A DNA stretch of 64,000 nucleotides. It comes from Sphingopyxis sp. YR583 (GTDB taxonomy: Bacteria > Pseudomonadota > Alphaproteobacteria > Sphingomonadales > Sphingomonadaceae). Position 1 is the stretch's first letter, and every line of letters starts with the position of its first letter. This document shows positions 3,703 through 26,989 of this stretch, in pieces. Below the pieces are notes generated by a model that was not told the origin of the DNA, did not search any database, and was given only the letters and a program-made list of their open reading frames with translations. Location: assembly GCF_900108295.1 (NCBI RefSeq), contig NZ_FNWK01000001.1, positions 1,426,001 to 1,490,000 on the forward strand. The letters are read 5' to 3'. Both the position numbers and the translations under genes were made by a program.

Positions 3703-4438
3703 GGAAGATCGACACATTGGGGGCGACATAGGGCGTCCGCTCACCCCGGAAGCGCCGGCTGCGTTCGCGGGCGGTCGCTTCGTCGGCGGCGGCGCGGGCT
3801 GCGGCGATTGCGTCGGCGCGGCCCTGCGCCGCGACCAGCGCAGTGAGGTCAGCAATCTGGCGCGTCTGGAGCGCGACGAGCTGATTGCCTGCCTGTGCTG
3901 CCTGCAAGGCGCCGACCGCATCCTGGCTCGCGCCGACGAGCGTGTCGATCTGCGCGCGGGTGTCGCCAAGGTTGGTGACGATCGTCGCCTGCGTCTTCAG
4001 CGCGTCCTGAAATCCCGCGACCGCGTCCTGCCAGCGGGTCTCGGCGTTCGCGACGAGGCGACCGTTGGTCGTGCCCGCGAGCGAGCCTTGCGGGTAGCGC
4101 TGGTCGAACACGCGGTCGATGTCGCGCACTTCATAGGCGATCTGCCGCGCCTCGCCGATGAGCTGGCGGGTGCGATCCATCGACTGCTGGATCTCGCGAA
4201 GGCTGCTGGTCGGAAGCGAGGTGAGGTTGCGCGCATCGTTTATCAGGCTCGCGGCCTCATTCTGGAGCGAGCTGATCTGGTTGTTGATCTGGGTGAGCGC
4301 GCGCGCTGCCTGAAGCAGGTTCTGCGAATAGTTGGTCGGGTCGTGAACGGTGAGCTGCGCCTGCACGGGCTGCGCCGCGAGGAGCGCGAGCGCGGCGGCG
4401 CCGACGAGGAATCGGCGTATAGAGGGGGCAGGCGTCAT
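3695..4438 (-). CDS. trbJ: TrbJ, conjugal transfer protein, VirB5-like
   Basis: TrbJ is the VirB5-like periplasmic protein associated with the pilus and channel. The 247-residue product has a signal peptide (hydrophobic residues 10-24, then Ala-Gln cleavage near 28). Its helical body carries the TrbJ-typical NYSQNLLQAARALTQINNQI near the mature N-terminus and ends with a charged tail. The start ATG at 4438 overlaps the trbE stop in an ATGA junction. Confidence 0.94.
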   Translation of the reverse strand: MTPAPSIRRFLVGAAALALLAAQPVQAQLTVHDPTNYSQNLLQAARALTQINNQISSLQNEAASLINDARNLTSLPTSSLREIQQSMDRTRQLIGEARQIAYEVRDIDRVFDQRYPQGSLAGTTNGRLVANAETRWQDAVAGFQDALKTQATIVTNLGDTRAQIDTLVGASQDAVGALQAAQAGNQLVALQTRQIADLTALVAAQGRADAIAAARAAADEATARERSRRFRGERTPYVAPNVSIFRD

Positions 4439-6984
4439 TGCTCTTCTCCTTCGTTAAAGAGGTCGGGTTCGGTGATGGGGGCGGGCTCGCTCGGTGTGGT
4501 CGCGGCCAATTCGTGGGCGACGATGTCGGCCGCCCACGCGAGGCCGCGATGGCGGAGCCAGGCTTCGGCGAATTTCTCCGCGCTATGCGTTTCGATCAGC
4601 GTGCCGATCGCGTTCATGTCGCTGCGCGACGAGGCCGCGGTGAAGGCGAGCGCGAATGGGCCGAGCCCGAGGTCGAACAGGCGGTTGCCGAGCGCGGACT
4701 GGCAATAATAGTCGCGCTTGGGTGTCGCGCCGGCGATGATCTCGATCTGACGGTCGTTCAGCCCGAAGCGCCGGTAGATGCCGCCGATCTGCGGTTCGAG
4801 CGCGCGCTCGTTGGCAAGGAACAGCCGCGTCGGGCAGCTTTCGATGATCGCGGGCGCGATCGCGCTGCCCTCGATGTCGGCGAGGCTCTGCGTCGCGAAC
4901 ACCACGCTCGCATTCTTCTTGCGGAGCGTCTTCAGCCATTCCTTGAGCTGGCGGCCGAACATCTCGTCATCGAGCGCGAGCCAGCCCTCGTCGATCAGGA
5001 TCAGCGTCGGGCGTCCGTCGAGGCGGCGTCCGATGCGGTGGAAGAGATAGGCGAGCACCGCCGGCGCGGGCGGGGTGCCAACGAGGCCTTCGGTCTCGAA
5101 CGCCTGTACATCGCTGCTGCCGAAGGCTTCGCTGTCGGCGTCGAGCAGGCGGCCATAGGGTCCGGCGATCGTATAGGGGAGCAGCGCCTGCTTCAGCGCC
5201 GCGCTCTGGACGAGCACCGCAAGCCCGGTGAGCGTGCGCTGATCCTTCGGCGCGCAGGCGAGGCTGCCGAGCGCGCTCCAGAGATGATCCTTGATCTCCG
5301 GCGTGATCGACTGGCCTTCGCGTGCGAGGATTGCCGCGATCCAGTCGGCTGCCCAGGCGCGTTCGTCGGGCTTGTCGATTGCCGCGAGCGGCTGGAGGGT
5401 TGTCTGGGTGGCCGCACGGCCTTCGGTCGGCGCGATCGTCCCGCCAAGATCATGCCACTCGCCGCCCATGCCGAGCGTCGCGGCGCGGATCGAGCTGCCA
5501 TGATCGAAGGCGAAAATCTGCGCGTTCGGGTAGCGGCGGAACTGGAGCGCGATGAAGGCGAGCAGCACCGACTTGCCCGCCCCGGTCGGGCCGACGACGA
5601 GGCTGTGCCCGACATCGCCGACATGGAGCGAAAAGCGGAACGGGGTCGCGCCCTGCGTCCGCGCATGAAACAGCGCGGGGCCGTTCATGTGGTCGTCGCG
5701 CTCCTGTCCGGCCCAGACCGCCGACACCGGCATGATGTGGGCGAGGTTAATCGTCGAGACCGGCGGCTGGCGGACATTGGCATAGGCATTGCCGGGATGC
5801 GAGCCGAGCCAGGCTTCGAGCGCGTTTAGCGTCTCGGGGACGCAGGCGAAGTCGCGGCCGCGCACGATCTTCTCGATGGATTGGATCTTCGCATCGGCGT
5901 CGCGCGCAGTGTCGCCGAAGATGGTGATCGTCGTCGTGACATAGCAATAGCCGGCGACATCGGCGCCGAGATCCTGAAGCGCCGCATCGGCTTCGGCCGA
6001 CTTGTTCGTCGCGTCGCTGTCGACGAGTATGCTCGCCTCGTTGGTTAGTACCTCCTTGAGGATCGCGCCGAGGCTCTTGCGCTTCGAGAACCAGAGACGC
6101 CTGATCTTGGTCAGCGTCTTCTGCGCCGCGATCTTGTCCATCAGGATCGCGCGTGTCGTCCAGCGATAGCCGAACCCCAGCCGGTTGAGCTCGTCGAGCA
6201 TGCCGGGGATAGTCGACGCCGGAAAACCGGTGATGGTGAGGCAGCGAAGGTGCTGCTGCCCGAGCTGCGGTGCCAGCCCGCCGACGAGAAGTTCGTCGGC
6301 GAGCAGCGCGTCGAGATGCATCGGCGTCTCGGGCAGCGCGATCCGTTGGCCCTTGGTCGATATGGTCGAGTGGAGGTAGGTGAGCGTCTCTTCGGGGCCG
6401 AGCCAGCGGCACTCGGGCATCACGCCTTCGATCATGTCGAACAGCCGCGCGGTCTCGCGCGTGAAATCCTGCACATGGTCGGCGGCGTTCGCCTGTGTCT
6501 TCTCTCCGCCCTCGAACAGGAGCGAAGCGGCTCGGGCGCTGTCGTCCGCCGGCGGCAGCCATTGCAGCGTCAGATAATAGGCGCTCGTGAAATTGGGTTG
6601 ATGGGCTTCGATCGTACGGCGGTCGGCGCCATAGGTCGCGACGACGGCCCAGTCTTCGAACTGTGCCCGCCGTTCCTCGTCGACGAGCCCCGAGACCGGA
6701 TCGGGGAAACCCTCGGAGGCAGGATAGTCGGGTGAGGCTTTACGCTGCGCTTCGACATGGATCGCCCAGCCGCTTCCGAGCCGTTTCAGCGCTGCGTTGA
6801 GCCGCGCCGAGGTTGCGATCAGTTCGCTCTGCGTCGCGGAATCGAGATCGGGGCCGCGGAATCCCAGCGTGCGCTGGAAGCTGCCGTCCTTGTTGAGGAT
6901 GATGCCGGGCGCGATCATCGCGGCCCAGGGCAGGAAATCCGATAGGCGCGTGCGCGCCCTGGCATGCTCGCGAAGGAACATCAT
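4435..6984 (-). CDS. trbE: TrbE, conjugal transfer ATPase, VirB4-like
   Basis: TrbE is the large VirB4-type ATPase that energises assembly of the mating channel at the inner membrane. The 849-residue length is normal for the family. A Walker A motif GPTGAGKS lies at about residues 465-472 and a Walker B segment LILIDEGWLALD further on, followed by the VirB4-typical KKNASVVFATQSLADI. The N-terminal 430 residues form the CagE/TrbE/VirB domain. The start ATG at 6984 is followed by a second ATG and lies five bases after the trbD stop. The gene is intact. Confidence 0.97.
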   Translation of the reverse strand: MMFLREHARARTRLSDFLPWAAMIAPGIILNKDGSFQRTLGFRGPDLDSATQSELIATSARLNAALKRLGSGWAIHVEAQRKASPDYPASEGFPDPVSGLVDEERRAQFEDWAVVATYGADRRTIEAHQPNFTSAYYLTLQWLPPADDSARAASLLFEGGEKTQANAADHVQDFTRETARLFDMIEGVMPECRWLGPEETLTYLHSTISTKGQRIALPETPMHLDALLADELLVGGLAPQLGQQHLRCLTITGFPASTIPGMLDELNRLGFGYRWTTRAILMDKIAAQKTLTKIRRLWFSKRKSLGAILKEVLTNEASILVDSDATNKSAEADAALQDLGADVAGYCYVTTTITIFGDTARDADAKIQSIEKIVRGRDFACVPETLNALEAWLGSHPGNAYANVRQPPVSTINLAHIMPVSAVWAGQERDDHMNGPALFHARTQGATPFRFSLHVGDVGHSLVVGPTGAGKSVLLAFIALQFRRYPNAQIFAFDHGSSIRAATLGMGGEWHDLGGTIAPTEGRAATQTTLQPLAAIDKPDERAWAADWIAAILAREGQSITPEIKDHLWSALGSLACAPKDQRTLTGLAVLVQSAALKQALLPYTIAGPYGRLLDADSEAFGSSDVQAFETEGLVGTPPAPAVLAYLFHRIGRRLDGRPTLILIDEGWLALDDEMFGRQLKEWLKTLRKKNASVVFATQSLADIEGSAIAPAIIESCPTRLFLANERALEPQIGGIYRRFGLNDRQIEIIAGATPKRDYYCQSALGNRLFDLGLGPFALAFTAASSRSDMNAIGTLIETHSAEKFAEAWLRHRGLAWAADIVAHELAATTPSEPAPITEPDLFNEGEEQ

Positions 6985-7253: not shown

Positions 7254-7567
7254 CAGACGAGCGCCCCGCCGCCGAAGCTGAAGAAGCTGAGGAAGAAGGA
7301 GGAGGCAGCGAAAGCGATCGAGAGGCCGAAGACGATCTGGATCAGCCGCCGGAACCCGCCCGACGTATCGCCGAACGCCAAGGTCAGCCCGGTGATGACA
7401 ATGATGATCACGCCGACGACGCGCGCGACCGGGCCCTGCACGCTGTCGACGATCGACTGGAGCGGGGTCTCCCACGGCATGCCTGAGCCGCCCGCGAGCG
7501 CGGGTGTGGCATGCAGGGCGAGCAGGCCGGCGATGGCGGCGAGGCGAAGGATATGGCTGGTCTTCAT
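7253..7567 (-). CDS. trbC: TrbC, conjugative pilin precursor, VirB2-like
   Basis: TrbC is the VirB2-like prepilin that forms the conjugative pilus. The 104-residue product starts at the ATG at 7567, which overlaps the trbB stop by four bases. It has a long signal region (residues 7-26, ending TPALA) and then two hydrophobic helices separated by a short loop (about 49-67 and 77-95), the usual pilin layout. The C-terminal FGGGALV resembles processed TrbC tails. A longer frame upstream lies inside trbB and is rejected. Confidence 0.93.
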   Translation of the reverse strand: MKTSHILRLAAIAGLLALHATPALAGGSGMPWETPLQSIVDSVQGPVARVVGVIIIVITGLTLAFGDTSGGFRRLIQIVFGLSIAFAASSFFLSFFSFGGGALV

Positions 7568-8535
7568 TCTGGAACTCCCTGTGGCTGGAGGATCGGAAGC
7601 AGGCGGTAGCTGCCGTCGGCGCCGAGCCCTTCGACGCGGACCAGTTCGGACAGGCGGCGCTCGGCGCCGCGGCCCGTCAGCACCGCGATGACGTCGATCG
7701 TCTCGGCGATGAGCGGGCGCGGGACATGCGCGATCGCCTCGAGAATGAGCTGTTCGAGGCGGTGGAGTGCGGCGCTCGCGGTTCCCGCGTGGATCGTGCC
7801 GATCCCCCCGGGATGGCCGGTGCCCCAGGCCTTCAAGAGGTCGAGCGCTTCTGGACCGCGGACCTCGCCGACCGGAATGCGATCGGGACGGAGACGGAGG
7901 CTTGAGCGGACGAGATCGGTCATCGTGACGCCCGGCGCGGTGCGCAGGCTCACGACATTGGCGGCGTCGCACCGAAGCTCGCGTGTATCCTCAATGAGGA
8001 CGATACGGTCGTCGCTCTTCGCTGCGAGGGCGAGCAGTGCATTGGTAAGCGTGGTCTTGCCGGTCGACGTGCCGCCGGCGACGAGAATATTGGCGCGGGT
8101 TTCGACGGCGCCCGCCAGATAGGTCGCAGCGATCGCGCTCATCGTGCCGGCGCGGACATAGTCGGCGAGCTCGAGCGGCAGGCTGGCGGGGCGGCGGATC
8201 GAGAAGACCGGCTGTGCCACGACGGGTGGCAGCAGGCCTTCGAAACGCTCGCCGCCTTCCGGCAGTTCGGCGGAGACGCGCGGGCTCGCGCGGTGGACTT
8301 CGGTGCCGACATGATGCGCGACGAGGCGGACGATGCGCTCGGCCTGCGCGGGGGTCAGCGTCTCTTCCGTGGGCGCCAAGCCGCTGTCGAGGTGGTCGAT
8401 CCAGAGCCGCCCGTCGGCGTTCAGCATGATCTCGGCGATATTGGGATCGCCGAGCCAGCCATCGATCGCCGCGCCGAGCGCGCTGCGCAGCATCGAGGTG
8501 CTGCGCGCATGGACGATGGCGTCGGGTTCGATCAC
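7564..8535 (-). CDS. trbB: TrbB, conjugal transfer ATPase, VirB11-like
   Basis: TrbB is the hexameric VirB11-type ATPase at the base of the mating channel. The 323-residue product has Walker A GGTSTGKT at 154-161, the Asp box LIEDTREL, a Walker B region [12 protein letters not shown] and the His box GIGTIHAG, so all catalytic elements are present. The start is a GTG at 8535. A good Shine-Dalgarno sequence, AGGAG, lies nine bases upstream (8545-8549 on the other strand) and supports it. This is the first gene of the visible operon. The coupling-protein gene traG, often found just upstream of trbB in related clusters, is not there; cargo genes are. Confidence 0.96.
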
Positions 8536-8956: not shown

Positions 8957-9574
8957 ATGGCGAGCGCTGTGCAGACGGCTTTCGATACCGCAGAGCGGGC
9001 ACGTCATTTCCGATTTAGCGATCTGGAAGCCGAAGGCTGGCAGCCTTTCGTTGCGCGGCACGCGGCGGGTCTTTCGCTTGCGGACATTGAAGCTCTCGCA
9101 GAAGCTATCGGAAAGCAAGTCGGTTACGAACCGGGCTCGGATCTTCGCAGTTTCGTCAGGCGCATCGGCGGAAATTTAAGCACGAGTTTGATCGGCGATC
9201 TCAGCGACGCTTCGCCAACAGGGCTATACGTACGCAGCGCTTCGACGGATTTCCTAATTGCTATTCCGGCGGCAAGTAGCTCGCGGTTCGACCAGTTCAT
9301 GGTAGCCAAGGCCCTTGCTCATTATTTTCTTCATTTCCGTTCAGCGGGGCACTCTTCGCGGCGCAAGGTAGAGAATGGCGACATCAGTGCCATCGAACAG
9401 GAAGCCGTGATTTTTGCGGTCACATTTCTGATGCCCAGCGCAGCTTTTGAACACGCTTTTGCCCGCACGGGCGGAGACATTGCGGCTTTGGCCGCTCATT
9501 TCCGCGTTCCAGTCGCGGTTGCCGAAGTTCGCGTTAAGCGTTTCTCTGTACCGATAGAACGAGCGCACGCTTAG
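8957..9574 (+). CDS. ImmA/IrrE-like protein with a degenerate metallopeptidase motif
   Basis: The 205-residue product has the layout of the ImmA/IrrE (DUF955) family, metalloproteases that often cleave phage or mobile-element repressors. The conserved block that normally reads AHELGHYFLH is AKALAHYFLH here (residues 117-126): the first zinc His is Lys118 and the catalytic Glu is Ala119, while the second His (122) remains. The downstream helix with IEQEAVIFAVTFLMP (146-160), typical of the family, is intact. The protein is therefore predicted to lack protease activity. The start at 8957 has AGGGG five bases upstream; an alternative ATG at 8930 has no good ribosome site. No HTH domain is visible. 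It is 45 bases upstream of the cyclase gene, likely in one operon. Confidence 0.7.
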   Translation: MASAVQTAFDTAERARHFRFSDLEAEGWQPFVARHAAGLSLADIEALAEAIGKQVGYEPGSDLRSFVRRIGGNLSTSLIGDLSDASPTGLYVRSASTDFLIAIPAASSSRFDQFMVAKALAHYFLHFRSAGHSSRRKVENGDISAIEQEAVIFAVTFLMPSAAFEHAFARTGGDIAALAAHFRVPVAVAEVRVKRFSVPIERAHA

Positions 9575-9619
9575 CAGCGGATTGCGGCGAAGTTCGACTT
9601 CCAGTGGTTCGGGGGGGCC

Positions 9620-10807
9620 ATGGCATTCGATTTAACCGGTTGTCCTGACGTATTGACGCCACGGCTGAGGATATTCCTGAGTGCCGATGTGGTGGGATCA
9701 ACAGCTCTAAAGCAGCCTGTTTTTCTCGAGACTCAGATCGACTGGCTGGAGATCATGCAGCGCTTTTATGGCGAAATGGTCGACGCGATGGAAACGGGCT
9801 GGGAACAGCTTAAGAGCGACCTCGATGAGGAACTTCATGATGTTTTCCTTGGACCGCCTCCACAATTCTGGAAGACCGTCGGCGACGAGGTCCTCTACTA
9901 CAAGGATCTGACGGACAGCCGCCAGATCACTCTCACCATCCTCTGCTGGAAGCGAGCGCTCGGGCTGGTGCGCACCTATTTTGAAAAGCAGAATAAAGGC
10001 CTTCTCCAGGAAGTTGGTCTGACGCTTGATCTAAAGTCGACGATTTGGACCGCGGGCTTTCCTCGTCGCAACAAAACGATCGTCAGTCCGGCAGGGCTAT
10101 CTCGCCAGCTGCGCGGAGGTAACTATTCCGACGCATTTCGACGAGCTCAGTCGCGGGCGCTGTCCCAACAGAAGCGCGATGCGAACGCCCGAGTTGAGTT
10201 TGATTTTATCGGTCCTGGTATCGACATCGGATTTCGTCTCGCCAACTTTGCCACCGAGCAGAAAATGGTGATCAGCCTCGATGTCGCATATATTCTTGCG
10301 CTCCGTGGCACGAATATCCTGCGGCGCCATATGAAGACGATCTCGGTCGATCCGATCCCCATTCATTATGACGGACGCGTTCTTCTGAAGGGTGTGTTCG
10401 GTCAGCGCAAATATCCCCTCTTCTGGATCGACAACTCTCCTGCGGGATCATTTGAAGCGGCCGAGGTGGCGGCGCGGACGCCGATACAAGATGCGGCGGT
10501 GCTGAAGTTTGCCCAGACATTTTATACCGAACATTATCGAGAATTTACCCACGAGCCCTTCATCATAAACGACCCCGCCAATGCTCTTACCAGCTATCCA
10601 CCCGAGTTCGCTCAATGGATGGAGGTTCAAATCAAGCTTTATAAGGATCTGGCACGCGAAGAGGCCTTGTTGCGCCGGAAGGCAAAAAGCGCGCTGGCCG
10701 CTTCTGAAGAGGATAGTATACCGCAAAAGCAGATCGCGTCAGAAGATGTGACAAAGCTTGCGCGGAAGCTCACTACCGGCATTCCTGCCGCGTCGAGCAG
10801 GCGATAG
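9620..10807 (+). CDS. Class III nucleotidyl cyclase-like protein
   Basis: The 395-residue product carries a class III (adenylate/guanylate) cyclase domain in its first 230 residues or so. Visible are the metal Asp in LSADVVGST (Asp23), the second metal Asp in WKTVGDEVL (Asp89) with the base-contacting Lys85, and the helix FDFIGPGIDIGFRLANFA. In that helix Asp195 aligns with the adenine-selecting Asp, Arg206 with the transition-state Arg, and Asp202 replaces the usual Asn. The last 165 residues or so match nothing I recognise. No signal peptide or membrane helix is seen. The next gene encodes an NTPase-nuclease, so a cyclic-nucleotide defence system, Pycsar-like in logic, is inferred but unproven. 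A G-rich Shine-Dalgarno precedes the ATG. Confidence 0.7.
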   Translation: MAFDLTGCPDVLTPRLRIFLSADVVGSTALKQPVFLETQIDWLEIMQRFYGEMVDAMETGWEQLKSDLDEELHDVFLGPPPQFWKTVGDEVLYYKDLTDSRQITLTILCWKRALGLVRTYFEKQNKGLLQEVGLTLDLKSTIWTAGFPRRNKTIVSPAGLSRQLRGGNYSDAFRRAQSRALSQQKRDANARVEFDFIGPGIDIGFRLANFATEQKMVISLDVAYILALRGTNILRRHMKTISVDPIPIHYDGRVLLKGVFGQRKYPLFWIDNSPAGSFEAAEVAARTPIQDAAVLKFAQTFYTEHYREFTHEPFIINDPANALTSYPPEFAQWMEVQIKLYKDLAREEALLRRKAKSALAASEEDSIPQKQIASEDVTKLARKLTTGIPAASSRR

Positions 10808-10880
10808 GTTCAATTTTGGGCTCGTATTCAGGGTATTCGCTTGCGGTCGGCAGTGGCATGTTGCGAATGATCGTCCGGCT

Positions 10881-11993
10881 ATGAATAAAGCGCTTCCTGC
10901 CCGGTGGGAAAGTCTGCTTGAGGGATCGATCGATCGTGGTCCGGAACTGGAGCGGCTGCTCAACACTTTGATCGAAAGCGATCAGCGCGCGATTGTTTTG
11001 GAAGGGCCTCCTGGCTCTGGAAAAACAACGCTAGCGGCGCAATTTGTCTACACTTTCAGAGAGCGATTTCCGGGCGGTATTGAATTTCGCACCGGCGCTG
11101 GCGAGCCCGACGAGTTTTTGGCCCCGGCTACTGGTACAGGCGATCGTCTGCTGATTTTTGATGCGCTCGACAATGTATGGCCGGGTGCGGATTGGGCGGC
11201 CGATTATTTGCAATCACGCCTTGCCGAAGACGCGCAGTTGAGAATCTTGATGACCTCGCGCCGGATACCGCAGATCGAGCGGTTCGAGCGGGTCGCCGTT
11301 CCTCCGATGGACATCGCCCAAATCAGCGAGATGCTTCGTCAGGGCATGCCCAGGGACGAACTTCCTCCACAACAGCTTCTTCTACTAGCGGACGGTAGTC
11401 CCATGATTGCAGCTGCGATTGTGGAGGCCGCACGCGTTTCGGCAAACTGGTCTGAACTTATAGCCAGACTTTCATCATTCAAACGGCCCGGCCTCGTTGA
11501 TCGCCACGGTAGGCCTCTGCGGAACGGGAGCGCTTCAGCAAAGACATTCCTCACCGGTGTTCGCGAAGTCAATGATTGGATCATGCAGCGATTGAAGCAG
11601 GATCCGGAGATTGTTCATCTTCTGAGTCCCCGCCAATTCGAGGAGCTGAGTGCCGAGCTTTTTACACGGCTTGGGTTCGACGTCGAACTCACGCCAGCTT
11701 CGAGGGACGGCGGGAAAGATCTGATACTTTTGAAACGCTCCGACTTGGGCACCATGATGACCTATGTTGAGTGCAAGCGGTACGCACCCAATCAGTCTGT
11801 CGGAGTGGCTGTGGTTCGCGCGCTTCACGGCGTAGTCGAAAGAGGGCGCGCAACCAGCGGTATTGTTCTGACCAGTTCACGGTTCACGAAAGGAGCGCTA
11901 GAATATCAAGAGGATATAAAATATCGCATTTCCTTGAAAGATTATGCCGATTTCAAGGGTTTAATCGATAAATCGATCAATGGCTCTATTTGA
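10881..11993 (+). CDS. P-loop NTPase fused to an Mrr-type restriction endonuclease domain
   Basis: The 370-residue product begins with a P-loop ATPase of NB-ARC/AAA type: Walker A GPPGSGKT at 42-49 and Walker B RLLIFD ending at Asp94. From about residue 249 it carries an Mrr-like endonuclease domain with FEELSAELFTRLGFDVE, then Asp280, Glu297 and Lys299 (GGKDLILL and YVECKRY), a complete PD-(D/E)XK active site. It is probably a cytoplasmic nuclease effector whose activity is gated by the ATPase. The chosen start ATG at 10881 lies 73 bases after the cyclase stop and directly before the first conserved residues. Earlier in-frame codons overlap the cyclase gene. No cyclic-nucleotide-binding domain can be seen. 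Confidence 0.78.
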   Translation: MNKALPARWESLLEGSIDRGPELERLLNTLIESDQRAIVLEGPPGSGKTTLAAQFVYTFRERFPGGIEFRTGAGEPDEFLAPATGTGDRLLIFDALDNVWPGADWAADYLQSRLAEDAQLRILMTSRRIPQIERFERVAVPPMDIAQISEMLRQGMPRDELPPQQLLLLADGSPMIAAAIVEAARVSANWSELIARLSSFKRPGLVDRHGRPLRNGSASAKTFLTGVREVNDWIMQRLKQDPEIVHLLSPRQFEELSAELFTRLGFDVELTPASRDGGKDLILLKRSDLGTMMTYVECKRYAPNQSVGVAVVRALHGVVERGRATSGIVLTSSRFTKGALEYQEDIKYRISLKDYADFKGLIDKSINGSI

Positions 11994-12122: not shown

Positions 12123-13211
12123 ATGCCGAGATTCGAAGAGAATGAAGCTGAACTGCTCGATCGAGCGCTGCTGGCAATCGAAGCACTTCCCAACGCTGGC
12201 GGGAAAATTATCGCCCAAAACGCGAGTTTGGGAGCCTATGGCCGCGTCGATGCGATCGCTGAATTATCGATATCGGGTCGCCCCTTTCGGCTCGTGATCG
12301 AGGTCAAGCGCGAGGTGTTCCCGCGCGACGTCCGAGAAACCATCTGGCAGCTTCGCAACTATCTGGCCCATATCGACGACGGCTCAGTCGAGATGTTGCC
12401 GTTTCTTGTCGCTCATTCGATTTCACCGGGCGCGCGACAAGTGCTCCAAGAGGAGGGCATCGGCTATTATGACTTTGGCGGCGCCCTCTTTATCCCCTCT
12501 CGCGAGACATATGTTTTTATTGACCGGCCTCCGCCTCGGAAGACGCAGAAAATCTTCACGTCAATTTTCGAAGGTCAACGTGCTCGGGTTGTTCGTGCCG
12601 TCTTCGACAAAGCACCTAATTGGCTAAGCGTCAAAGAGCTGGCCAAGGATTTGGATATCTCGCCTGCTACCGCTTCGGCAACGCTCAGCGAAATGGAGCG
12701 GCGCGACTGGGTCGAAGCAGAAGGATTGGGGCCAAGCAAGTTGAGGAGACTCAGCAACGGGCGCATGCTTCTCGACGAGTGGAGCGAATATATTGCCGAT
12801 CAGCCGACGCCAAAGATGAAGCGCTACTATGTGTCTATGAAGACCGCGGAGGGCCTTATGCGAAAGCTTGATGCCGCGTGCTGCGATGCTCAGATACGCT
12901 ATGCCGTGACCGGCGAAGCCGCTGCCCAGCTTTACGCTCCCTATCTATCGAGCGTGGCTCAGGTGCGCTGCCGGATGGCGCCCGGTCGGCATGCCGAAGA
13001 GATGCTTTCCGACATGGATGCCCGGCCGGTCAGTGAGGGGTGGAACTTGGGCATAATAGATGTCCGAAGCGCGAGCGACGTCGATGTAGGCCAGCGCTGC
13101 GACGGGATCGCGTTGGCACCTCCGATCCAGGTCTATCTCGATCTCCTCCAAGGAGCAGGGCGCTCAAAAGAAATGGCCGTTCATCTCCGCGCCGAGCGGC
13201 TCGATTTCTGA
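12123..13211 (+). CDS. AbiEi-like regulator (type IV antitoxin) with an N-terminal PD-(D/E)XK-like domain
   Basis: The 362-residue product has three parts. Residues 1-140 look like a PD-(D/E)XK fold, with Asp43 (GRVDAIAEL) and Glu60-x-Lys62 (LVIEVKRE), followed by a typical core ending GIGYYDFGGALFI. Residues 153-205 form a winged helix (LSVKELAKDLDISPATASAT). The C-terminal half resembles AbiEi-type antitoxins. The gene overlaps the following nucleotidyltransferase gene by one base (TGATG), the standard antitoxin-toxin layout. The start ATG at 12123 is preferred over an earlier ATG at 12069, which would place the inverted repeats inside the gene. Inferred role: DNA-binding antitoxin and autorepressor. 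Whether the nuclease-like domain cuts DNA is unknown. Confidence 0.65.
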   Translation: MPRFEENEAELLDRALLAIEALPNAGGKIIAQNASLGAYGRVDAIAELSISGRPFRLVIEVKREVFPRDVRETIWQLRNYLAHIDDGSVEMLPFLVAHSISPGARQVLQEEGIGYYDFGGALFIPSRETYVFIDRPPPRKTQKIFTSIFEGQRARVVRAVFDKAPNWLSVKELAKDLDISPATASATLSEMERRDWVEAEGLGPSKLRRLSNGRMLLDEWSEYIADQPTPKMKRYYVSMKTAEGLMRKLDAACCDAQIRYAVTGEAAAQLYAPYLSSVAQVRCRMAPGRHAEEMLSDMDARPVSEGWNLGIIDVRSASDVDVGQRCDGIALAPPIQVYLDLLQGAGRSKEMAVHLRAERLDF

Positions 13212-14116
13212 TGGCCAAGGCAAAATCCATCGGCGGTTACGACGCGCGTGTGACCGAGGCCTGCGAACGCGTCCTGGTTACGCTCCTCCGCCATCTGGGG
13301 CCCTGGCGTGAATCCGTTTTCCTCGTCGGAGGATTGACGCCCCGCTATCTGATCGAGGCCCGCCCGCCGGAGGTGCCAGCTCACGCCGGAACGGCTGACG
13401 TCGATGTCGTCGTCGATATCGCGATGCTAACCGACACGGAGGCCTATCGAACGCTGGAAGCCAATCTTCGCGAAATGAACTTTCATCGCGCAGTCAACGA
13501 AGACGGAATCAAACAATCCTGGCGATGGCAGACCGAAGTGGACGGGGCCACGATGATCCTCGAATTTCTCGTCGACGATCCCGACCGGCGCGGGGGCAAG
13601 GTCGAAGTCTTGCCGGTCGAGGGCAAGGTATCCGCGGTCAATATTCCTCATTCGTCCATGGTTGTGGATTTTCACAAGACCCGCGAGCTTAAAGCCGAAT
13701 TGCTTAACGGTAAGGGAGTGGCGGTCGAAAAAGTGCGTTTTGCCGATATCGTGAGTTTTACCTGTCTCAAATCGCTGGCGTACGACGATCGCATCGAGCC
13801 CAAGGACGCGCATGATCTCGTTTATTGTCTCGAGCATTATCCAGGCGGGGTCGAGGCGGCCGTGGACGAGTTTCTCCGAGGATTGGAAACGAAGCACCGC
13901 GAAGTCATCCTCGACGCGCTCGGACGCTTATCGAAGCGCTTTCGCGATGGCGACCCGGATCAAAGTTACCGCCTTGACGGTCCTGTCGCCGTGGCCGCTT
14001 TCGAGGGAAATGACGCGGGCATTGAAGAAGATGAAGGGGAGCGTGACAGTCGGATCCTGCGTCAAAGGCGAGCTGCAGATGTCGTCGCCCAGCTCTTGGG
14101 GCCGCTCATTGGCTAG
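13211..14116 (+). CDS. AbiEii-like nucleotidyltransferase (type IV toxin candidate)
   Basis: The 301-residue product has a DNA polymerase-beta-type nucleotidyltransferase core: FLVGG at 37-41 and TADVDVVVD at 61-69, giving the GG...DxD metal site with Asp63 and Asp65. A region typical of AbiEii/MenT-like toxins follows (FHKTRELKAELLNGKG, then KSLAYDDRIEPKDAHDL). Such enzymes add nucleotides to tRNA or other targets and arrest growth. The ATG at 13211 overlaps the regulator's stop codon by one base, so the pair is translationally coupled. The last 60 residues are acidic and charged. The family call is reasonably firm, but toxicity and target are inferred. Confidence 0.72.
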   Translation: MAKAKSIGGYDARVTEACERVLVTLLRHLGPWRESVFLVGGLTPRYLIEARPPEVPAHAGTADVDVVVDIAMLTDTEAYRTLEANLREMNFHRAVNEDGIKQSWRWQTEVDGATMILEFLVDDPDRRGGKVEVLPVEGKVSAVNIPHSSMVVDFHKTRELKAELLNGKGVAVEKVRFADIVSFTCLKSLAYDDRIEPKDAHDLVYCLEHYPGGVEAAVDEFLRGLETKHREVILDALGRLSKRFRDGDPDQSYRLDGPVAVAAFEGNDAGIEEDEGERDSRILRQRRAADVVAQLLGPLIG

Positions 14117-14191: not shown

Positions 14192-15775
14192 ATGGACAGT
14201 CGCCATATAGGACGGAAAGGCGAAAAGCGCTTCAGCCTCCTGTGCACCGACGCCGGCGTTACCTGCAACCAGTCCCAGGAAGACGATAACGGATGGGACA
14301 TGCTGATCGAGTTTCCGCCAGCGGCTCAACCGCTCATCGCGCTCGACATGCGCAACGGTGTGACTGCTGCGTCCGTGCAGGTCAAAACCACAGAGACCCG
14401 CAGCCGATCTGTTTCCATCCGTCTGTCCAATGCGCTTCACTATACGCGCAACCCTCTGCCAACATTCATCGTCCTCGTCGCTATCGAGGGTGGGCAGCCT
14501 CGCTACTTCGCGAAGCACGTTTGGACTGAACTGATCGGGGCGTGGCTAAAAGCTGCGAGAGAAGCCGACGCTGCGGGGGCGACCGAGGCCAACCACGATG
14601 ACGTCACCTTGAGATTCGAGGACTCAGACGAACGAGGGGAGGCAGTTCTCGATTGGATGCAGCAGGAGATTCGCCTGGTCGGAAAAACTTATGCGGCGAT
14701 CAAGCAGAACATTGTCGACACGATCGGGTTTGAGAAAACACGCGGCACGATCGAGCTTGAGATGGCCATGGAGGATCTCAACGATTTTCTCGACATACAG
14801 CTTGGCCTGACCCCGCGCTTCAGGGCTAATCGCTTTACGGTCAGATCTGAGCGCTTCGGGATCGAGGCGAGCATTCCTGAAGTCGATTTGCGGGACGTCG
14901 ACATAATACTCACGCCGCTAGGTCAGGATGCCATGCTGCATTTCCAGTTTCCCAAAGGAGTCTCGGTCAGTCTTCCGGCCAAGCTTTACGGGGCAGAAGA
15001 CGAGGATCGACATGCGATGCGGGTCGTCACTCGATGCTTCGAGTGGACGAGGCGATCAGAGGGTGATGTTCGTGTTCGCGCTCTTCTATCAACCGAAGAG
15101 GCGATGCCGATCGCGGAAATAGCCCTTTTTGCCCTTTTAAAGGCCCATGACGCCGCGGACCGCTTCCATATCGAAATCGAGGTGGGCGGAAAATCATATG
15201 GTCGGATCTCCCTGTCTGTCGGTACGGATGACGAGCGCAAAAAAGCGTGGGGGTGGACCGCGCTAACGTTCCTCTCACTCCTCGATATCGAAAAGGAACT
15301 GTCGTCCCCACTGCCCGAACTCAGTCATAGCCAAGTCTATGGAGAGGACGGTGATCCGATGATATTATGCTCGATGGCGAGTGAGCGCTACTTGCGCTTC
15401 GAGCTTGATCGAAGCCCGGATATGCCGGACCGTTTCACCTCCTTTCTTGCCTATGGCTATGCTCGTGTCGGAAGCTTGATGATCGGTATCATATCCAGGC
15501 GTCCGATTATTGACGACCGTCTCAACGGGGAGAAGCGTCTCGTGGGGCTTGGCGTGCCAAAGCTCTTGCGTTGCTTCGCTACGGACGTCGCTCTCTGGTC
15601 AAAAGACGATCTTGAGGCGGTATTTGAAACTCAAAAAGAACTCATGGCGGCGGATGGCGAACTGTTGGCAGTCGGGGACATCAACTCGATCATTTCGAGC
15701 GGCAAGGGCGAAGCGCCGGCGAAACCGAAAGGGATAAAGTCAAAACGATCGGCTCGGCGCCAGAAATCGAGATAA
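14192..15775 (+). CDS. DUF4365-like PD-(D/E)XK nuclease with a large uncharacterised C-terminal region
   Basis: The first 110 residues of this 527-residue protein match the DUF4365 nuclease pattern: Glu11 in GRKGEKRF, Asp36 in NGWDMLIEF and Gln63-x-Lys65 in ASVQVKTT, a QxK variant of the PD-(D/E)XK site. Residues after 130 are not recognised. They are soluble, of mixed charge, and end in a basic tail (GIKSKRSARRQKSR) that could contact nucleic acid. The start ATG at 14192 follows a G-rich ribosome site. The gene stands alone, 75 bases after the AbiE-like pair, and converges with the next gene. A defence nuclease is inferred. Confidence 0.55.
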   Translation: MDSRHIGRKGEKRFSLLCTDAGVTCNQSQEDDNGWDMLIEFPPAAQPLIALDMRNGVTAASVQVKTTETRSRSVSIRLSNALHYTRNPLPTFIVLVAIEGGQPRYFAKHVWTELIGAWLKAAREADAAGATEANHDDVTLRFEDSDERGEAVLDWMQQEIRLVGKTYAAIKQNIVDTIGFEKTRGTIELEMAMEDLNDFLDIQLGLTPRFRANRFTVRSERFGIEASIPEVDLRDVDIILTPLGQDAMLHFQFPKGVSVSLPAKLYGAEDEDRHAMRVVTRCFEWTRRSEGDVRVRALLSTEEAMPIAEIALFALLKAHDAADRFHIEIEVGGKSYGRISLSVGTDDERKKAWGWTALTFLSLLDIEKELSSPLPELSHSQVYGEDGDPMILCSMASERYLRFELDRSPDMPDRFTSFLAYGYARVGSLMIGIISRRPIIDDRLNGEKRLVGLGVPKLLRCFATDVALWSKDDLEAVFETQKELMAADGELLAVGDINSIISSGKGEAPAKPKGIKSKRSARRQKSR

Positions 15776-16554: not shown

Positions 16555-17289
16555 CTATTCGGCCGCTGGCCTGGACGGCTGAGAATACATTCCCAGCAAC
16601 TCGCGAGCGAGCTCTGCCCTTGCCTTGTTTCGGGACGTAGCGTCGCCAGCTTCGATCGATTCAATGATGTTTATCGACATGCCCACTGCGTTGATGCGCT
16701 CCAGCACCACAACGTAATTTTTAGCTTGGTCCATGGTCGATCGGTAAATGATCAGGAAGGTGCCTCCTATCGCTTGAACCAATACACCGGAAGCTGCTGC
16801 AAGTATCGGCATCGTGATCGCGCCCGGCTCGTCGATTGCGCGCCAGACCCCTAGGCCGACGAGCGCCATTCCGAATAACATCACAACCGTCGTGAGCACG
16901 AAGATCGCCGTGACATGCCCGAGATTGCGGTCAAGATAACTTTCGAGCTTCAGCCGCGCGACATCCCAGGTATATTGCGAACGGTCGGGATTTTCGCGGG
17001 CACGTACCTCGGCAGCTTCGACCTTTTCTTCTTCTGCCGCGCGGCGGGCATTGGTGCTGAGAGAAGAAATCGTGACCAGGCCGATAAAGGCTATGCCGGC
17101 AGCCGGGGCGCCCACCACCTCGGAGTTCGATAAATTAAGCGCACCTGAAAAGGCCAGAAGCGCGATAATGAAACCCAGAACATACATGAACAGTCCCGCG
17201 ATGTAGAACTTCTGCAGTCGTGGGCTCAGATGGCGCCAGCCTCCGAGGAGCATTTGAGTTGCGTGCCTAATTGCAGGTTCGGTTTCCAT
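16555..17289 (-). CDS. Membrane protein resembling the TRADD-N-associated transmembrane domain
   Basis: The 244-residue product has four predicted membrane helices: two near the N-terminus (IAGLFMYVLGFIIALLAF and GAPAAGIAFIGLVTI) and two near residues 125-170. The second pair and its context (SYLDRNLGHVTAIF, then GGTFLIIYRSTMDQAKNY and LERINAVGMSINIIESI) resemble the two-helix membrane module associated with TRADD-N domains in bacterial conflict systems. No TRADD-N domain itself is visible. The start ATG at 17289 has a strong AGGGGG ribosome site. It is upstream of the HEPN-like gene with only 15 bases between. A membrane sensor or effector partner is a plausible role but unproven. Confidence 0.5.
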   Translation of the reverse strand: METEPAIRHATQMLLGGWRHLSPRLQKFYIAGLFMYVLGFIIALLAFSGALNLSNSEVVGAPAAGIAFIGLVTISSLSTNARRAAEEEKVEAAEVRARENPDRSQYTWDVARLKLESYLDRNLGHVTAIFVLTTVVMLFGMALVGLGVWRAIDEPGAITMPILAAASGVLVQAIGGTFLIIYRSTMDQAKNYVVVLERINAVGMSINIIESIEAGDATSRNKARAELARELLGMYSQPSRPAAE

Positions 17290-17343
17290 GTTGCCCCCTA
17301 GTTCGTTCGCTTCCGCGCCGCGGCTTCTCACTTCATCGCTTCG

Positions 17344-18258
17344 ATGATTGCAAGAAAATCTGTGGTGAAGCTCTATTGTGATGAGAAGGCGAGATTATGG
17401 GGTATTGACGCGATGCGAGATTGGAAGACCCGAGACGAGCCCACCAACGCCAATCTGCGCCTTCTCGAATCCATGTCGAGAGCATGGCCAAATATGAACG
17501 CGGATCAGGCCACGCAGCGGCTGACTACGATCATCAGTATCGACGATATGCTCCCCAAGGCCGTTCGAGCCCATTTCCGGTTGCCTTCGCTTTATATCGG
17601 CAACGCGCACTACAGCTGGTCGCAAGCCCGGCTCGACGAATGGTGGTCGGAACTGTCGTCGGCGATTGTTGTCGGTCTGGATGCGGTGGAAGCGGACAAG
17701 GATTTGCAAAAGGGAGGCGCTGCAACCCTCGACGATCGGCCACCCACTCGCGGTGAGGAGCTCAATGATGCCTGTCGCGCTTACAGCCAGCATGCAAACT
17801 CAACCACGCTCGATGACCTGCGTCTCGCCTGCTCTGCACCGGGGCTCGGCCAATATTTCGAGCGACTGACTTATTGGCTGGGGCGAAAGCGCCCGGCCCC
17901 CGGACGCAGGCCGATCGCTTCGGAACTCTGGATCGCGTTGAGCAACATCGAAGCCCGAGCGGACTATTATCATCACCACCGGGCCTCCTATCGGTACGAC
18001 GATAAGCGTCGTGCTGAAGCTGCATCGAGCGCTGATGAGCACCACCCTTCGCCGATAATCGAAGCTCTACATACCGTAAGCCGCGGGGGGCTCGTGCTCG
18101 GCCAGCGCGTGCGTCACGGGAAATTCGGCCAGGGCACGATCACGCATATCGAGGGCGATCGCATCGAAGCGGAGTTCGATGGATTGGGAGCGAAGCGTAT
18201 TCTGGAGACTTTTCTTACGGCCGAAACGTTACCCGAGGCACACCCTAGCCAGCAATAG
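17344..18258 (+). CDS. Hypothetical protein with a C-terminal UvrD/PcrA-type Tudor-like domain
   Basis: The 304-residue product is unrecognised over its first 240 residues. Its C-terminus (LGQRVRHGKFGQGTITHIEG, continuing to KRILETFLTAE) matches the SH3/Tudor-like domain at the end of UvrD/PcrA helicases, which binds RNA polymerase or nucleic acid. The helicase motor is absent; no Walker motifs are seen. The gene starts at 17344, 54 bases from the divergent membrane-protein gene. Its end overlaps the convergent OLD-nuclease gene by 14 bases. A DNA-repair or defence link is suggested only by that domain and by the neighbouring nuclease. Confidence 0.5.
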   Translation: MIARKSVVKLYCDEKARLWGIDAMRDWKTRDEPTNANLRLLESMSRAWPNMNADQATQRLTTIISIDDMLPKAVRAHFRLPSLYIGNAHYSWSQARLDEWWSELSSAIVVGLDAVEADKDLQKGGAATLDDRPPTRGEELNDACRAYSQHANSTTLDDLRLACSAPGLGQYFERLTYWLGRKRPAPGRRPIASELWIALSNIEARADYYHHHRASYRYDDKRRAEAASSADEHHPSPIIEALHTVSRGGLVLGQRVRHGKFGQGTITHIEGDRIEAEFDGLGAKRILETFLTAETLPEAHPSQQ

Positions 18259-20122
18259 GACCGACCAATCGAGGGTCGTCCGAGGCTCCGTTTGCGCCGC
18301 ACCATGTCGAAAGCTCACCCTGAAGGAAGGTACGGTAATCCTGGTCACCTGAGGGATCGAAATCGAGGCCGTAGTGGTAGGGTGAATCGCACACATCGAG
18401 CATGAAATCGAGAACCTGCTGCCGGAGCGTTTCATCCTCCTTGATACGAATATAAGCCTGCAGCGGCTTGTCTTTACCGAGCTCGTCTCCGCCAAGATGT
18501 CGTTCAAAATCAGGTACGCTACAGCGATGGCGCACCACAATATTGGCAGCTCGGCAGGCTTTCAGCTCATCCAATATCGTCTGATTGGTTGTCCACATCG
18601 GGTTGGCCTTCCGGTTCGAAGTATATGGCCAATCGATGTCGTGGATGATGCTGAACGGGATGCGGAAGTGCCGCAGCATCCGGATGAGACCGGGCAAAAT
18701 ACCCTTGCCTCGCGCACGGATGACGGCCGCTCGCGCTGCTAGTTCATGGTTCGTCTCCACAACGGCGGCGATGAAGGCGGCATGCTCGGTGTCGCCCTCG
18801 ACGAGGATCGGATAGGAGCCGAAGAATATTTCGGAGAATCCGACGTCCATCTGTTGCAGGGCGCTCAGATTTCTCTTGGTTTCGGGGTCGAAGGTGACTT
18901 CATCGGCACGGTAGGTCCGACTGTTCAGTGGGCCTTGATCGCCGCCGGCCCGTTCAAGTCGAACGATCGTGGTGTGATCCTCGAGCGGGTTGATGAAATA
19001 CGGAGAATGGGTGGTCATCATCACCTGCCAATCCGGATCGGCGGCGAGTTGATAGAGATGCTTTTGCGCGGCGCGAGCGGCCATGGGGTGGAGGGCGTTT
19101 TCAGGTTCGTCGATCAGCAAAAGATATCCGGGAAAGGCGGGATCATCCTCGGCGCCGGCAAGCTGTTCCCCCGCGTCGAGCGCCTCCAGCTTCGCAATCG
19201 CCGCCGCTTTGACTTCTTCTTTTTTGTTCTTGAGATCCTTGAGAATACCGTCCCGCACTTCCTGCTGCCGGGTCAATTGATTGTGAACCTGGAGCATCGA
19301 CCAGAAGAGCGCTCGCCGGGCTCCAGCGCCTTGCTGAGCCAAGGAGGTTTCTACCTGTCCGTCTTGGACACGAATTCCCGATCCCTCCTTGAGCAATTTA
19401 TCGAGACTGATCGTAGGCGCGGACATCGCTACTTCCAGCCGCACCCCAAGGGTCGGAAATACGCCTTTGAACCCCTCATGCACCTTGGTGGCAATGTCGC
19501 CGAACCGGTCTTCGTGCGTCTTGCTGAGACCGTCGACCACGCTCATCAGGCTTGCGACTGATTTGGACAGGTTCGAATTGGGATCGCCCTGCTCCGTCTT
19601 CATCTCCGCGACGAAGGGCGACAAGGCGAGTGTCAGCAACAGTTCTTCGGTCTTGTCGGCGTCTTCCAGCGATCCGATGCGCAGCGGCCGCGGCAGTCGC
19701 GATTTGAAAACATTATCCGCACCTCCGGCCTTGCCGTCTTCTGACCAATTGTTTTCGGCAGGACTCCAAGTCTTGCGGACCATGGCTCCGTCCGCCGCCC
19801 ATTCCCATCGACTTCGCAAAATGCGGTCGCTGCCATCGATAATCTTCCAGTCCTCTGCGATATTGGCGATCCCTTCCGGGATATGCACATCCAGTTCCAC
19901 GACGCATGGCTCCCCATCGGGAGCCCAGCGGCAGCGATCACGCGCGACGGAGAACTTGTTCGGGCTCTCGGCTAATTCATAAGCGCGGAGGATCGTCGAT
20001 TTTCCGGCATTATTCTTGCCGACGAGGCATACCACGTCGTCCAGCGCCACTTCGACGCCATCGGGTCCGATGCATCCGATATTCTGTACCACGAGCTTCA
20101 AGAGCTTCGAACGGTTCGCCAT
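18245..20122 (-). CDS. OLD-family ATPase with TOPRIM endonuclease domain
   Basis: The 625-residue product combines an ABC-type ATPase and a TOPRIM nuclease, the layout of OLD (overcoming lysogenization defect) proteins and of GajA. Visible are Walker A GKNNAGKS at 35-42, Walker B LLLIDEPENALHP, and TTHSPYFINP, then the TOPRIM residues Glu442 in ILVEGDTEH and Asp495/Asp497 in IIHDIDWPY. The start ATG at 20122 has GGAGGGG five bases upstream and is preferred to a longer frame. No GajB-type UvrD helicase is adjacent, so this looks like a stand-alone (class 1) OLD nuclease rather than a complete Gabija system. It probably acts on DNA ends or phage DNA. Confidence 0.85.
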   Translation of the reverse strand: MANRSKLLKLVVQNIGCIGPDGVEVALDDVVCLVGKNNAGKSTILRAYELAESPNKFSVARDRCRWAPDGEPCVVELDVHIPEGIANIAEDWKIIDGSDRILRSRWEWAADGAMVRKTWSPAENNWSEDGKAGGADNVFKSRLPRPLRIGSLEDADKTEELLLTLALSPFVAEMKTEQGDPNSNLSKSVASLMSVVDGLSKTHEDRFGDIATKVHEGFKGVFPTLGVRLEVAMSAPTISLDKLLKEGSGIRVQDGQVETSLAQQGAGARRALFWSMLQVHNQLTRQQEVRDGILKDLKNKKEEVKAAAIAKLEALDAGEQLAGAEDDPAFPGYLLLIDEPENALHPMAARAAQKHLYQLAADPDWQVMMTTHSPYFINPLEDHTTIVRLERAGGDQGPLNSRTYRADEVTFDPETKRNLSALQQMDVGFSEIFFGSYPILVEGDTEHAAFIAAVVETNHELAARAAVIRARGKGILPGLIRMLRHFRIPFSIIHDIDWPYTSNRKANPMWTTNQTILDELKACRAANIVVRHRCSVPDFERHLGGDELGKDKPLQAYIRIKEDETLRQQVLDFMLDVCDSPYHYGLDFDPSGDQDYRTFLQGELSTWCGANGASDDPRLVGPIAG

Positions 20123-20301
20123 ACATGCCCCTCCAGTTTTGCCCCTTACCACCGCTTGACGATCCGGACCGAGAATACACGCACATTTTTTCAGATATCG
20201 GCCACAATGGACCAAAAATCTGGCGATCGCCGTCAGCGTGCTTCGACTAGGCGCTCGCGATTTCCTGTGGAGCGCTTTAGAAGCGATCAGAGGGGGCTTT
20301 G

Positions 20302-26602: not shown

Positions 26603-26989
26603 TCATGCTTTCAACTCGATCATTTCGACGGGGACATAACGATGAAAATCAGCATGTTGCCTCTTTAATGGGCATCGCCATTCGCCAGCCGGATATTGCG
26701 GGTTGTGCCAGCACATCTCCGCGTGAGAATATCGCGCGAATACCGGGAAAGGGATAGGCTCAACGGCACGTTTTAGCTCGTCACGCAATGCTCGACCCGC
26801 TGGTGTCAGATCAACACGGGCCAAGACATAGCAGTCTGGCGGGGTATCTAGAGAGGTGATGGTCACCAAGCCCGCGCGTTGGAGCGCCGCCATCGACGGC
26901 CGTGACCATCGTCCAAATCGCTGCGTCGTGCCTGCTCCTTCCGTCAGCGAGACGAGAACCCGCTGCTGCCGTTGGGTTAATGGCTTCAT
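26603..26989 (-). CDS. Small winged-helix-like protein coupled to the integrase
   Basis: A 128-residue protein whose ATG at 26989 overlaps the integrase stop by four bases, so it is translated with the integrase. The first 65 residues resemble a winged helix (LTQRQQRVLVSLTEGAG, SMAALQRAGLVTI, then LTPAGRAL). The remainder has His, Cys and Trp residues (AEMCWHNPQYPAGEWRC) of unknown role. It could be a regulator of integration or excision, but it is not a recognised excisionase. No other evidence for function is seen. Confidence 0.55.
   Translation of the reverse strand: MKPLTQRQQRVLVSLTEGAGTTQRFGRWSRPSMAALQRAGLVTITSLDTPPDCYVLARVDLTPAGRALRDELKRAVEPIPFPVFARYSHAEMCWHNPQYPAGEWRCPLKRQHADFHRYVPVEMIELKA

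Follow-up and report, generated by a model that had tools for sequence, protein, structure and literature searches.

An unnamed gene pair of an ImmA/IrrE-type protein and a predicted class III nucleotide cyclase, found in several phyla and on mobile elements

Two adjacent genes of Sphingopyxis sp. YR583, encoding an ImmA/IrrE (M78) type protein and a member of an unnamed family of class III nucleotide cyclases, are, judged from their sequences and those of their relatives, one unit: an unnamed pair that was found across several phyla. The window (the whole stretch of DNA analysed, 64,000 nucleotides) carries them in ICE-like cargo together with a third gene. Gene 1 (P0001; 8957..9574, + strand) codes for the ImmA-like protein of 205 aa, a regulator or antitoxin candidate, and gene 2 (P0002; 9620..10807, + strand) for the cyclase of 395 aa with a C-terminal helical tail (approximately residues 275-395). 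Gene 3 (P0003; 10881..11993, + strand) lies outside the conserved module and codes for a neighbour of 370 aa that combines a P-loop (NB-ARC-like) domain with an Mrr_cat nuclease; PD-(D/E)XK-like residues (GGKD...ECK) and a Walker A motif (GPPGSGKT) can be seen in it by eye. The arrangement given by the first-pass annotation, three same-strand genes with gaps of 45 and 73 bases, was confirmed and all three of its domain calls were correct. We tentatively read the pair, with slightly less than even confidence, as a mobile two-gene toxin-antitoxin-like or abortive-infection module in which the ImmA protein would gate a cyclase that has no receptor of its own.

The pairing was observed well beyond the window. 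Of 122 cyclase ORFs 240 aa or longer (114 distinct, the total including the window and duplicate records), 92 are immediately preceded by an ImmA ORF (85 distinct pairs). In 89 of these 92 cases the ImmA ORF overlaps the cyclase or ends within 30 bases of it, bearing out the part of the earlier proposal that joins an ImmA-like protein to the cyclase. For this collection 80 of 295 genome relatives were retained and ORFs were called mechanically from the first possible start. A coarser tally that includes fragments and duplicates placed ImmA in 95 of 124 rows; the 92-pair tally is the cleaner of the two. In a separately drawn phylum sample ImmA was present at 19 of 26 non-window places and 15 of 21 new places, and at 15 of 16 among new places whose ORF reaches 300 aa or more. 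Four of the seven places without ImmA are interrupted or incomplete or show no recognised cyclase ORF. The class sample displayed ImmA at 8 of 13 further places, and at 5 of the 10 that were not identical to collected loci. The samples overlap the collection, with 5 of the 26 phylum-sample places and 3 of the 13 class-sample places identical to collected loci. Of the five class-sample places without ImmA, three have a short cyclase of 258-303 aa that comes closest to the TorF-linked type, and the other two hold ORFs of 527 and 584 aa that are only 23-25% identical to the collected cyclases. Divergence of the two partners was correlated over the 85 pairs (r = 0.656; highest of 1000 permutations 0.117), with r = 0.461 among row pairs with a cyclase distance above 0.5. 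Any two genes that travel together would be expected to show such co-divergence as well.

A cyclase without ImmA occurred in 23 of the 110 rows of the cyclase tree. Identical rows were omitted from this tree, as were four loci (L077, L098, L110 and L126) that are interrupted, truncated or have no upstream sequence. Two clades with recurring neighbours account for 21 of these rows, one of Caulobacterales (17 rows) and one of TorF-porin-linked sphingomonads (4 rows). An ImmA protein therefore does not hold the cyclase in every case, and the cyclase is perhaps non-toxic. When upstream ORFs alone were searched, the ORF before the L036 cyclase displayed a weak ImmA likeness (E 7e-6), and those before the cyclases of L015 (E 0.034) and L019 (E 0.99) were not recognisable as ImmA. 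No third gene recurred, as no Pfam family was present in more than 3 of 113 downstream neighbours (taken from 137 selected ORFs, not all of them necessarily genes, with the 25 commonest families shown). Among these neighbours there were isolated hits to RmrA, RmrT and 2TM Effector models, and two to capP/M78; NUDIX fusions occur in a few copies of the pair.

Gene 3 looks like a chance companion of the pair. No P0003 homologue was found among the ORFs of the 121 other cyclase loci (L015-L135, duplicates counted), 114 of which hold at least 1.2 kb past the cyclase and seven less, and no relative was found in the 1.5-kb flanks of L161-L209. All five full-length P0003 relatives lay without ImmA or cyclase nearby; two of them adjoin an ORF that is integrase-like by eye, and three, from the order sample, come from genomes that are not among the cyclase-bearing ones. 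The first-pass annotation had proposed a three-gene system, with the cyclase making a signal and the Mrr nuclease fusion as effector. The tight same-strand spacing and the correct domain calls speak for such signalling, and the closest relative of the window cyclase, L028, cannot be judged for P0003 because its contig stops 127 bases past the cyclase. Neither the three-gene system nor the effector role was borne out, however, since P0003 was not found with the pair elsewhere, its full-length relatives have neither ImmA nor cyclase nearby, and no cNMP-binding model was present among the 25 of its 32 families listed; we consider three-gene signalling very improbable.

The cyclase fold of P0002, on which the earlier reading had depended, was upheld by the structure model and its fold matches, which speak against a cyclase likeness by chance motif only. 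The link by sequence to known cyclases is very weak: profile searches against the PDB reached Rv1900c at E 0.15 and 1.9, a single-sequence search returned chance matches only, and Pfam (including Guanylate_cyc), NCBIfam and PADLOC did not detect the window cyclase. A BFVD structure search gave five matches at E <= 0.001, including guanylate-cyclase-domain and kinase/sensor proteins of phages and giant viruses. Among the 114 distinct cyclase sequences D23, K85 and D89 were each present in 113, D195 in 108 (Glu in the other six), and D202 and R206 in all, a conservation that is partly built in because the two peptide patterns used for the genome and viral scans lie within the active-site region. 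We take D23 and D89 to be the metal positions, K85 and D195 the base-selecting pair, D202 to stand at the place of the transition-state Asn and R206 to be the transition-state Arg. This register was derived from spacing and a weak profile alignment with Rv1900c (E 0.15), which agrees from D195 to R206. The transition-state Asn is replaced by Asp in 114 of 114 sequences (Rv1900c has His there in the weak alignment), so catalysis could be altered. P0002 would most likely cyclize an NTP, with ATP predicted from the K85/D195 pair. The C-terminal tail is longer in ImmA-linked cyclases than in the others (median 121 vs 88 residues after P266).

P0001 has the M78 fold (Pfam E 1.3e-11), and its predicted structure (pLDDT 73.1, from 5 sequences) matched PprI/IrrE and a M. 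tuberculosis transcriptional regulator at E 2e-4 to 1e-3. The HEXXH zinc site is absent and is replaced by KALAH, in which the first His and the Glu are gone. The description of P0001 as a dead ImmA protein therefore holds for the window but not as a trait of the system, as HEXXH is kept in 81 of 85 distinct partners, the Bradyrhizobium one of L048 among them. Its loss in the window is, from the sequence comparison, a derived state within a sphingomonad clade in which the motif decayed, and the partner alignment and tree indicate that the pair persists while HEXXH decays. Since most partners keep the protease motif, cutting, and not just binding, probably matters in most copies, whereas any gating in the window's sphingomonad clade would have to proceed by binding because the protease centre has decayed there.

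As the first-pass annotation had stated, the locus did not correspond to a named system, and no description of an ImmA-cyclase pair was found in the literature searched. The best PADLOC profile of P0001 was capP (E 5.1e-11), and CapP of CBASS, too, is a small regulator of metalloprotease fold that accompanies a nucleotide-signal system. Membership of CBASS was rejected, however, as P0001-P0003 had no CD-NTase match and the fold of P0002 is that of a class III cyclase; the pair holds neither a CapH-type partner nor a CD-NTase, and its ImmA protein adjoins a class III cyclase instead. This family shares its fold with the bacterial class III adenylyl cyclases CyaC, CyaB and Rv1900c, as well as D, D, K, D and R at the active site, and it differs from them in having no Pfam Guanylate_cyc match, Asp for Asn, the helical tail and the ImmA partner.

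RosmerTA (RmrA/RmrT) and the other ImmA-hub pairs (NetFlax node D25) also consist of two genes, an ImmA-fold protein and a likely acting partner, and ImmA-type proteins are described as a hub antitoxin in RosmerTA defence (PMC10440598). The RmrA profiles matched P0001 with E values from 1.1e-8 upwards. They span 357-400 positions and often include an N-terminal HTH, whereas P0001 has 205 aa and aligns to the M78 part only, and the partner in the window is a class III cyclase without an RmrT profile match (none of P0002 and 13 relatives matched any PADLOC model, RmrT included). With no full-length RmrA and no RmrT match, membership of RosmerTA was rejected. Pycsar (PycC with PycTIR or PycTM) is likewise a small gene module whose signal is made by a class III cyclase, and AnPycC (8jsz) was among the fold matches of P0002 (rank 35, E 1.6e-6). 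Its adjacent cyclic-pyrimidine receptor (CNBD with TIR, or TM) has no recurring counterpart beside the pair, although one of 113 neighbours matched 2TM Effector models, so single receptor cases are possible. AnPycC (clade D) and EaPycC (clade E) have Phe two residues before the first metal Asp (PMC11224242), a position that is Ser in 111 of 114 members of this family. K85/D195 resemble the canonical adenylate cyclase pair, and by spacing from the metal Asp this family has Lys at the clade E Arg and Val at the Gln/Lys position. Lacking a recurring receptor gene and differing from PycC clades D and E in its base-selecting residues, the pair was rejected as a member of Pycsar.

The mobile setting noted at first holds both for the window, with its ICE-like cargo, and for relatives on a plasmid and phages. 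The pair was found on the conjugative plasmid pTM3, in Leptospira phage LE1 and in two C. difficile phages, phiC2 and phiCD27, whose cassettes are identical and lie between the lysis genes and the integrase; IMG/VR yielded 28 cyclase loci, 26 with an ImmA neighbour. The pair profiles matched phiC2 ORF42-ORF41 at E 1e-38 and 9e-42 and LE1 Orf2-Orf1 at E 4e-49 and 1e-72, the profiles including L122, which is equal in length to LE1. The annotations of LE1 and phiC2 call these genes no more than transcriptional regulator/immunity-region or metallo-protease proteins and hypothetical proteins. Both LE1 and phiC2 appear in Makarova 2009 among ImmA-type (COG2856) operons, and of the two uses of the word cyclase there at least one concerns another family.

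Carriage by such elements could also mean that the ImmA protein is an anti-repressor that cuts the element's repressor, with the cyclase supplying its trigger, as in ImmA/ImmR-like control of excision or induction. ImmA of ICEBs1 acts so (PMC10440598 and PMC2701414), and in five Leptospira-type loci (L024, L120-L123) the pair is followed by an XRE-type HTH gene of opposite orientation, which the LE1 annotation names repressor CI. No regulator recurs near the pair outside those five loci, however, phiCD27 has next to its integrase a repressor with a metallo-protease that are distinct from its ImmA-cyclase pair, located elsewhere, and the window ImmA lacks the catalytic residues, which makes control of the element unlikely. 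Alternatively, the element's cyclase would raise host cAMP or another cNMP and shift CRP-type regulation its way, a lysogenic conversion tuned by ImmA without killing or defence. The cargo position in phiC2 and phiCD27, the stand-alone cyclase relatives, the lack of a recurring dedicated receptor and the 10 cNMP-binding domain hits in the window genome all fit this explanation, but it leaves the tight, frequent ImmA partner unexplained, and three further class III cyclases in the window genome would make a simple supply of cAMP redundant; we regard it as doubtful, though not far-fetched.

Under the toxin-antitoxin-like or abortive-infection reading, the cyclase would be the acting partner, converting an NTP, likely ATP, into a cyclic nucleotide, and the ImmA-like protein on or beside it would be the gate that senses infection or stress and either holds the cyclase off or switches it on. 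Once triggered, the cyclic nucleotide, or a drain of NTP, could stop growth or reprogram the cell via host cNMP receptors, for which the 10 cNMP-binding domain hits of the window genome are candidates, and the resident element and the population would be protected, as with toxin-antitoxin or abortive infection. If this is right, the pair, unnamed although its relatives sit as hypothetical genes in the long-known phages LE1 and phiC2, would join ImmA-hub toxin-antitoxin pairs to cyclic mononucleotide signalling, so far described apart, and would raise how a receptorless cyclase can protect a cell.

A broader proposal, possible but held with clear doubt, is an unnamed multi-phylum immune or stress system in which an ImmA-fold protein directly gates a receptorless adenylate-type cyclase that would act through the host cNMP network or NTP drain, with the few NUDIX fusions tuning the nucleotide. 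It would account for LE1 Orf1 and Orf2 and would tie mononucleotide cyclase signalling to sensing of the ImmA type. Most ImmA copies in such a system would be catalytically active, and some would be pseudoproteases. The copies found here form a natural series, from an intact ImmA motif through a lost motif to no recognisable ImmA, in which the role of proteolysis is directly testable.

Three ORFs on the plus strand, separated by gaps of 45 and 73 bases as in the first-pass annotation, encode an ImmA-like protein (P0001; 8957-9574), a class III nucleotide cyclase (P0002; 9620-10807) and a P-loop/Mrr nuclease fusion (P0003; 10881-11993). Pfam bore out the domains assigned earlier to P0001 (M78/IrrE; E 1.3e-11) and P0003 (P-loop plus Mrr_cat). 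P0002 had no match in Pfam, PADLOC or NCBIfam. None of 14 members of its family was matched by PADLOC, and five Pfam models each matched one member (E 0.0044 to 0.089).

Genes 1 and 2 are one unit. An ImmA ORF was located immediately upstream of the cyclase in 92 of 122 cases among the collected loci, with 89 of these 92 pairs overlapping or at most 30 bases apart, and an ImmA profile, made from the cyclase-linked copies themselves, gave only seven matches away from the cyclase in the 1.60 Mb of these loci. A sample of 398 Pseudomonadota genomes was drawn separately, although it was not disjoint from the collected loci (5 of 26 places identical), and contained cyclase relatives in 23 genomes, the window's own counted. 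ImmA adjoined the cyclase at 19 of the 26 non-window places, at 15 of the 21 new places and at 15 of 16 of the latter where the ORF reached at least 300 aa. In the class sample (relatives in 15 of 385 genomes) ImmA was found at 8 of 13 further places and at 5 of 10 new ones, those lacking it being mostly short, TorF-type forms; the order sample gave 8 matching genomes of 296, own genome counted. The distances of the two partners also co-varied (r 0.656, 85 pairs; maximum of 1000 permutations 0.117), with r 0.461 when restricted to pairs of rows with a cyclase distance over 0.5. The kinds of protein and the general plan are already known. The ImmA-cyclase combination and the cyclase family appear to be unnamed, in agreement with the earlier remark that no named system fits. 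No description of the pair was found in the literature searched.

P0003 is not part of this unit, and the three-gene system proposed in the first-pass annotation was not upheld. Neither the ORFs of 121 loci (L015-L135; 114 with at least 1.2 kb past the cyclase) nor the short flanks taken from L161-L209 contained a homologue besides the window's own, and all five full-length relatives (three genomes, two plasmids) lacked both ImmA and cyclase nearby. No Pfam family occurred in more than three of 113 downstream neighbours of other pairs; the module thus comprises two genes with no recurrent effector. In the window's closest relative (L028) the contig ends 127 bases past the cyclase, so the gene 3 position is unreadable there. 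An ORF judged integrase-like by eye adjoins two of the five full-length relatives. P-loop/Mrr proteins of this type with such a neighbour (L158, L159) are a candidate single-gene defence element in their own right.

The ImmA of the window lacks its active site, as noted earlier (KA..H), although HEXXH was kept in 81 of 85 distinct partners. The other altered forms were those of L028 (KQ..H), L058 (RV..N) and L069 (QM..H). In the cyclase tree the window grouped, at an SH-aLRT of 95, with L028, L058, L019, L015 and L036. All five lack an intact ImmA; in the last three a small ORF with an absent or weak match to the ImmA profile precedes the cyclase. L069 fell in a different group, so HEXXH was lost at least twice. 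The dead ImmA of the window is a derived state. Six examined cyclase positions were intact in rows with degraded or unrecognised ImmA, and a moderate-confidence structure model of P0001 matched PprI/IrrE and an M. tuberculosis transcriptional regulator.

Two further cyclase groups lack ImmA, one from Caulobacterales (17 rows) and one from sphingomonads, linked to a TorF porin (4 rows). Residues past P266 numbered 63-66 in the TorF group and mostly 81-100 in the Caulobacterales group, compared to a median of 121 (range 82-233) in ImmA-linked cyclases. This shorter tail in groups without ImmA makes the C-terminus a candidate contact to ImmA. The short sphingomonad cyclases (L020, L021, L022, L025) each lie directly downstream of a porin-type gene belonging to one and the same cluster (TorF in an annotated record, which also names a Crp/Fnr protein close by), with a large transporter-like ORF in common nearby. 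Ten stand-alone Caulobacterales cyclases (L051, L057, L061, L063, L066, L086, L087, L089, L093, L099), probably vertically inherited, have a gene close by that is RelA/SpoT-like by eye.

The mobile setting described earlier was confirmed. The three genes are flanked by minus-strand conjugation genes (TrbE-type, 4435-6984; VirB11-type ATPase, 7564-8535) on one side and by a series of further cargo genes on the other; a phage-type integrase is encoded at 26986-28371. Relatives occur on plasmids and phages. The pair was present on the conjugative plasmid pTM3 (Tistrella), on Leptospira and Mycolicibacterium plasmids and in 26 of 28 IMG/VR loci. Rows with the pair came from Pseudomonadota, Planctomycetota, Verrucomicrobiota and one MAG labelled Minisyncoccota; further members were found in Leptospira, in Mycolicibacterium and in C. 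difficile phages. Profiles confirmed it in phiC2 (ORF42 and 41), phiCD27 (gp38 and gp37) and Leptospira phage LE1 (Orf2 and Orf1), the last having the same length as L122, already in the profiles. phiC2 and LE1 are listed among ImmA-type operons, no cyclase being named in that listing (Makarova 2009; PMC2701414). In LE1 (L193, L194) the pair lies within the sequenced Orf1-Orf5 stretch beside a ParA-type gene, and the records give no function for Orf1.

One main rival explanation is that the pair controls its mobile element. The cassette is identical in phiC2 and phiCD27, with lysis genes on one side and integrase on the other, and phiCD27 carries its own separate repressor and metallo-protease pair, which favours cargo over control. 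An XRE-type gene repeatedly downstream of the pair in five Leptospira-type loci, however, counts against a cargo-only view. We prefer a toxin-antitoxin-like or abortive-infection module, by analogy with ImmA-fold proteins, which are described as a hub antitoxin both in RosmerTA defence and within NetFlax, a network of such pairs (PMC10440598). The ImmA protein would gate a signal-making cyclase, whose product may feed host signalling or whose reaction may drain NTP. No recurrent receptor gene was found beside the pair. In the host genome, cNMP-binding domains gave ten hits and three class III cyclases are present besides this one, so the product could enter host signalling. The second main rival is lysogenic conversion through host cNMP signalling. 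A few cyclases carry a C-terminal NUDIX domain (L125, 6914-8359, Pfam E 1.5e-4; L186, 1414-2883, E 1.3e-7; L191, 4830-6416; phiC2 ORF41, by alignment only), which points to nucleotide handling.

The window's cargo resembles a defence island. Beyond P0003 lie an AbiEi-like and AbiEii-like pair (12126-14116, plus strand), matched weakly by Pfam (E 4e-4 and 2e-3), and a DUF4365-like protein (14192-15775) whose E of 4.7e-5 lies just under the cut-off; these are more defence-like cargo. Within 16555-24053 one protein has a TRADD-N-associated 2TM domain, another (18245-20215) is an OLD-like AAA/TOPRIM protein, and a phosphoesterase and an SMC-type protein form a pair of SbcCD-like appearance (20299-24053).
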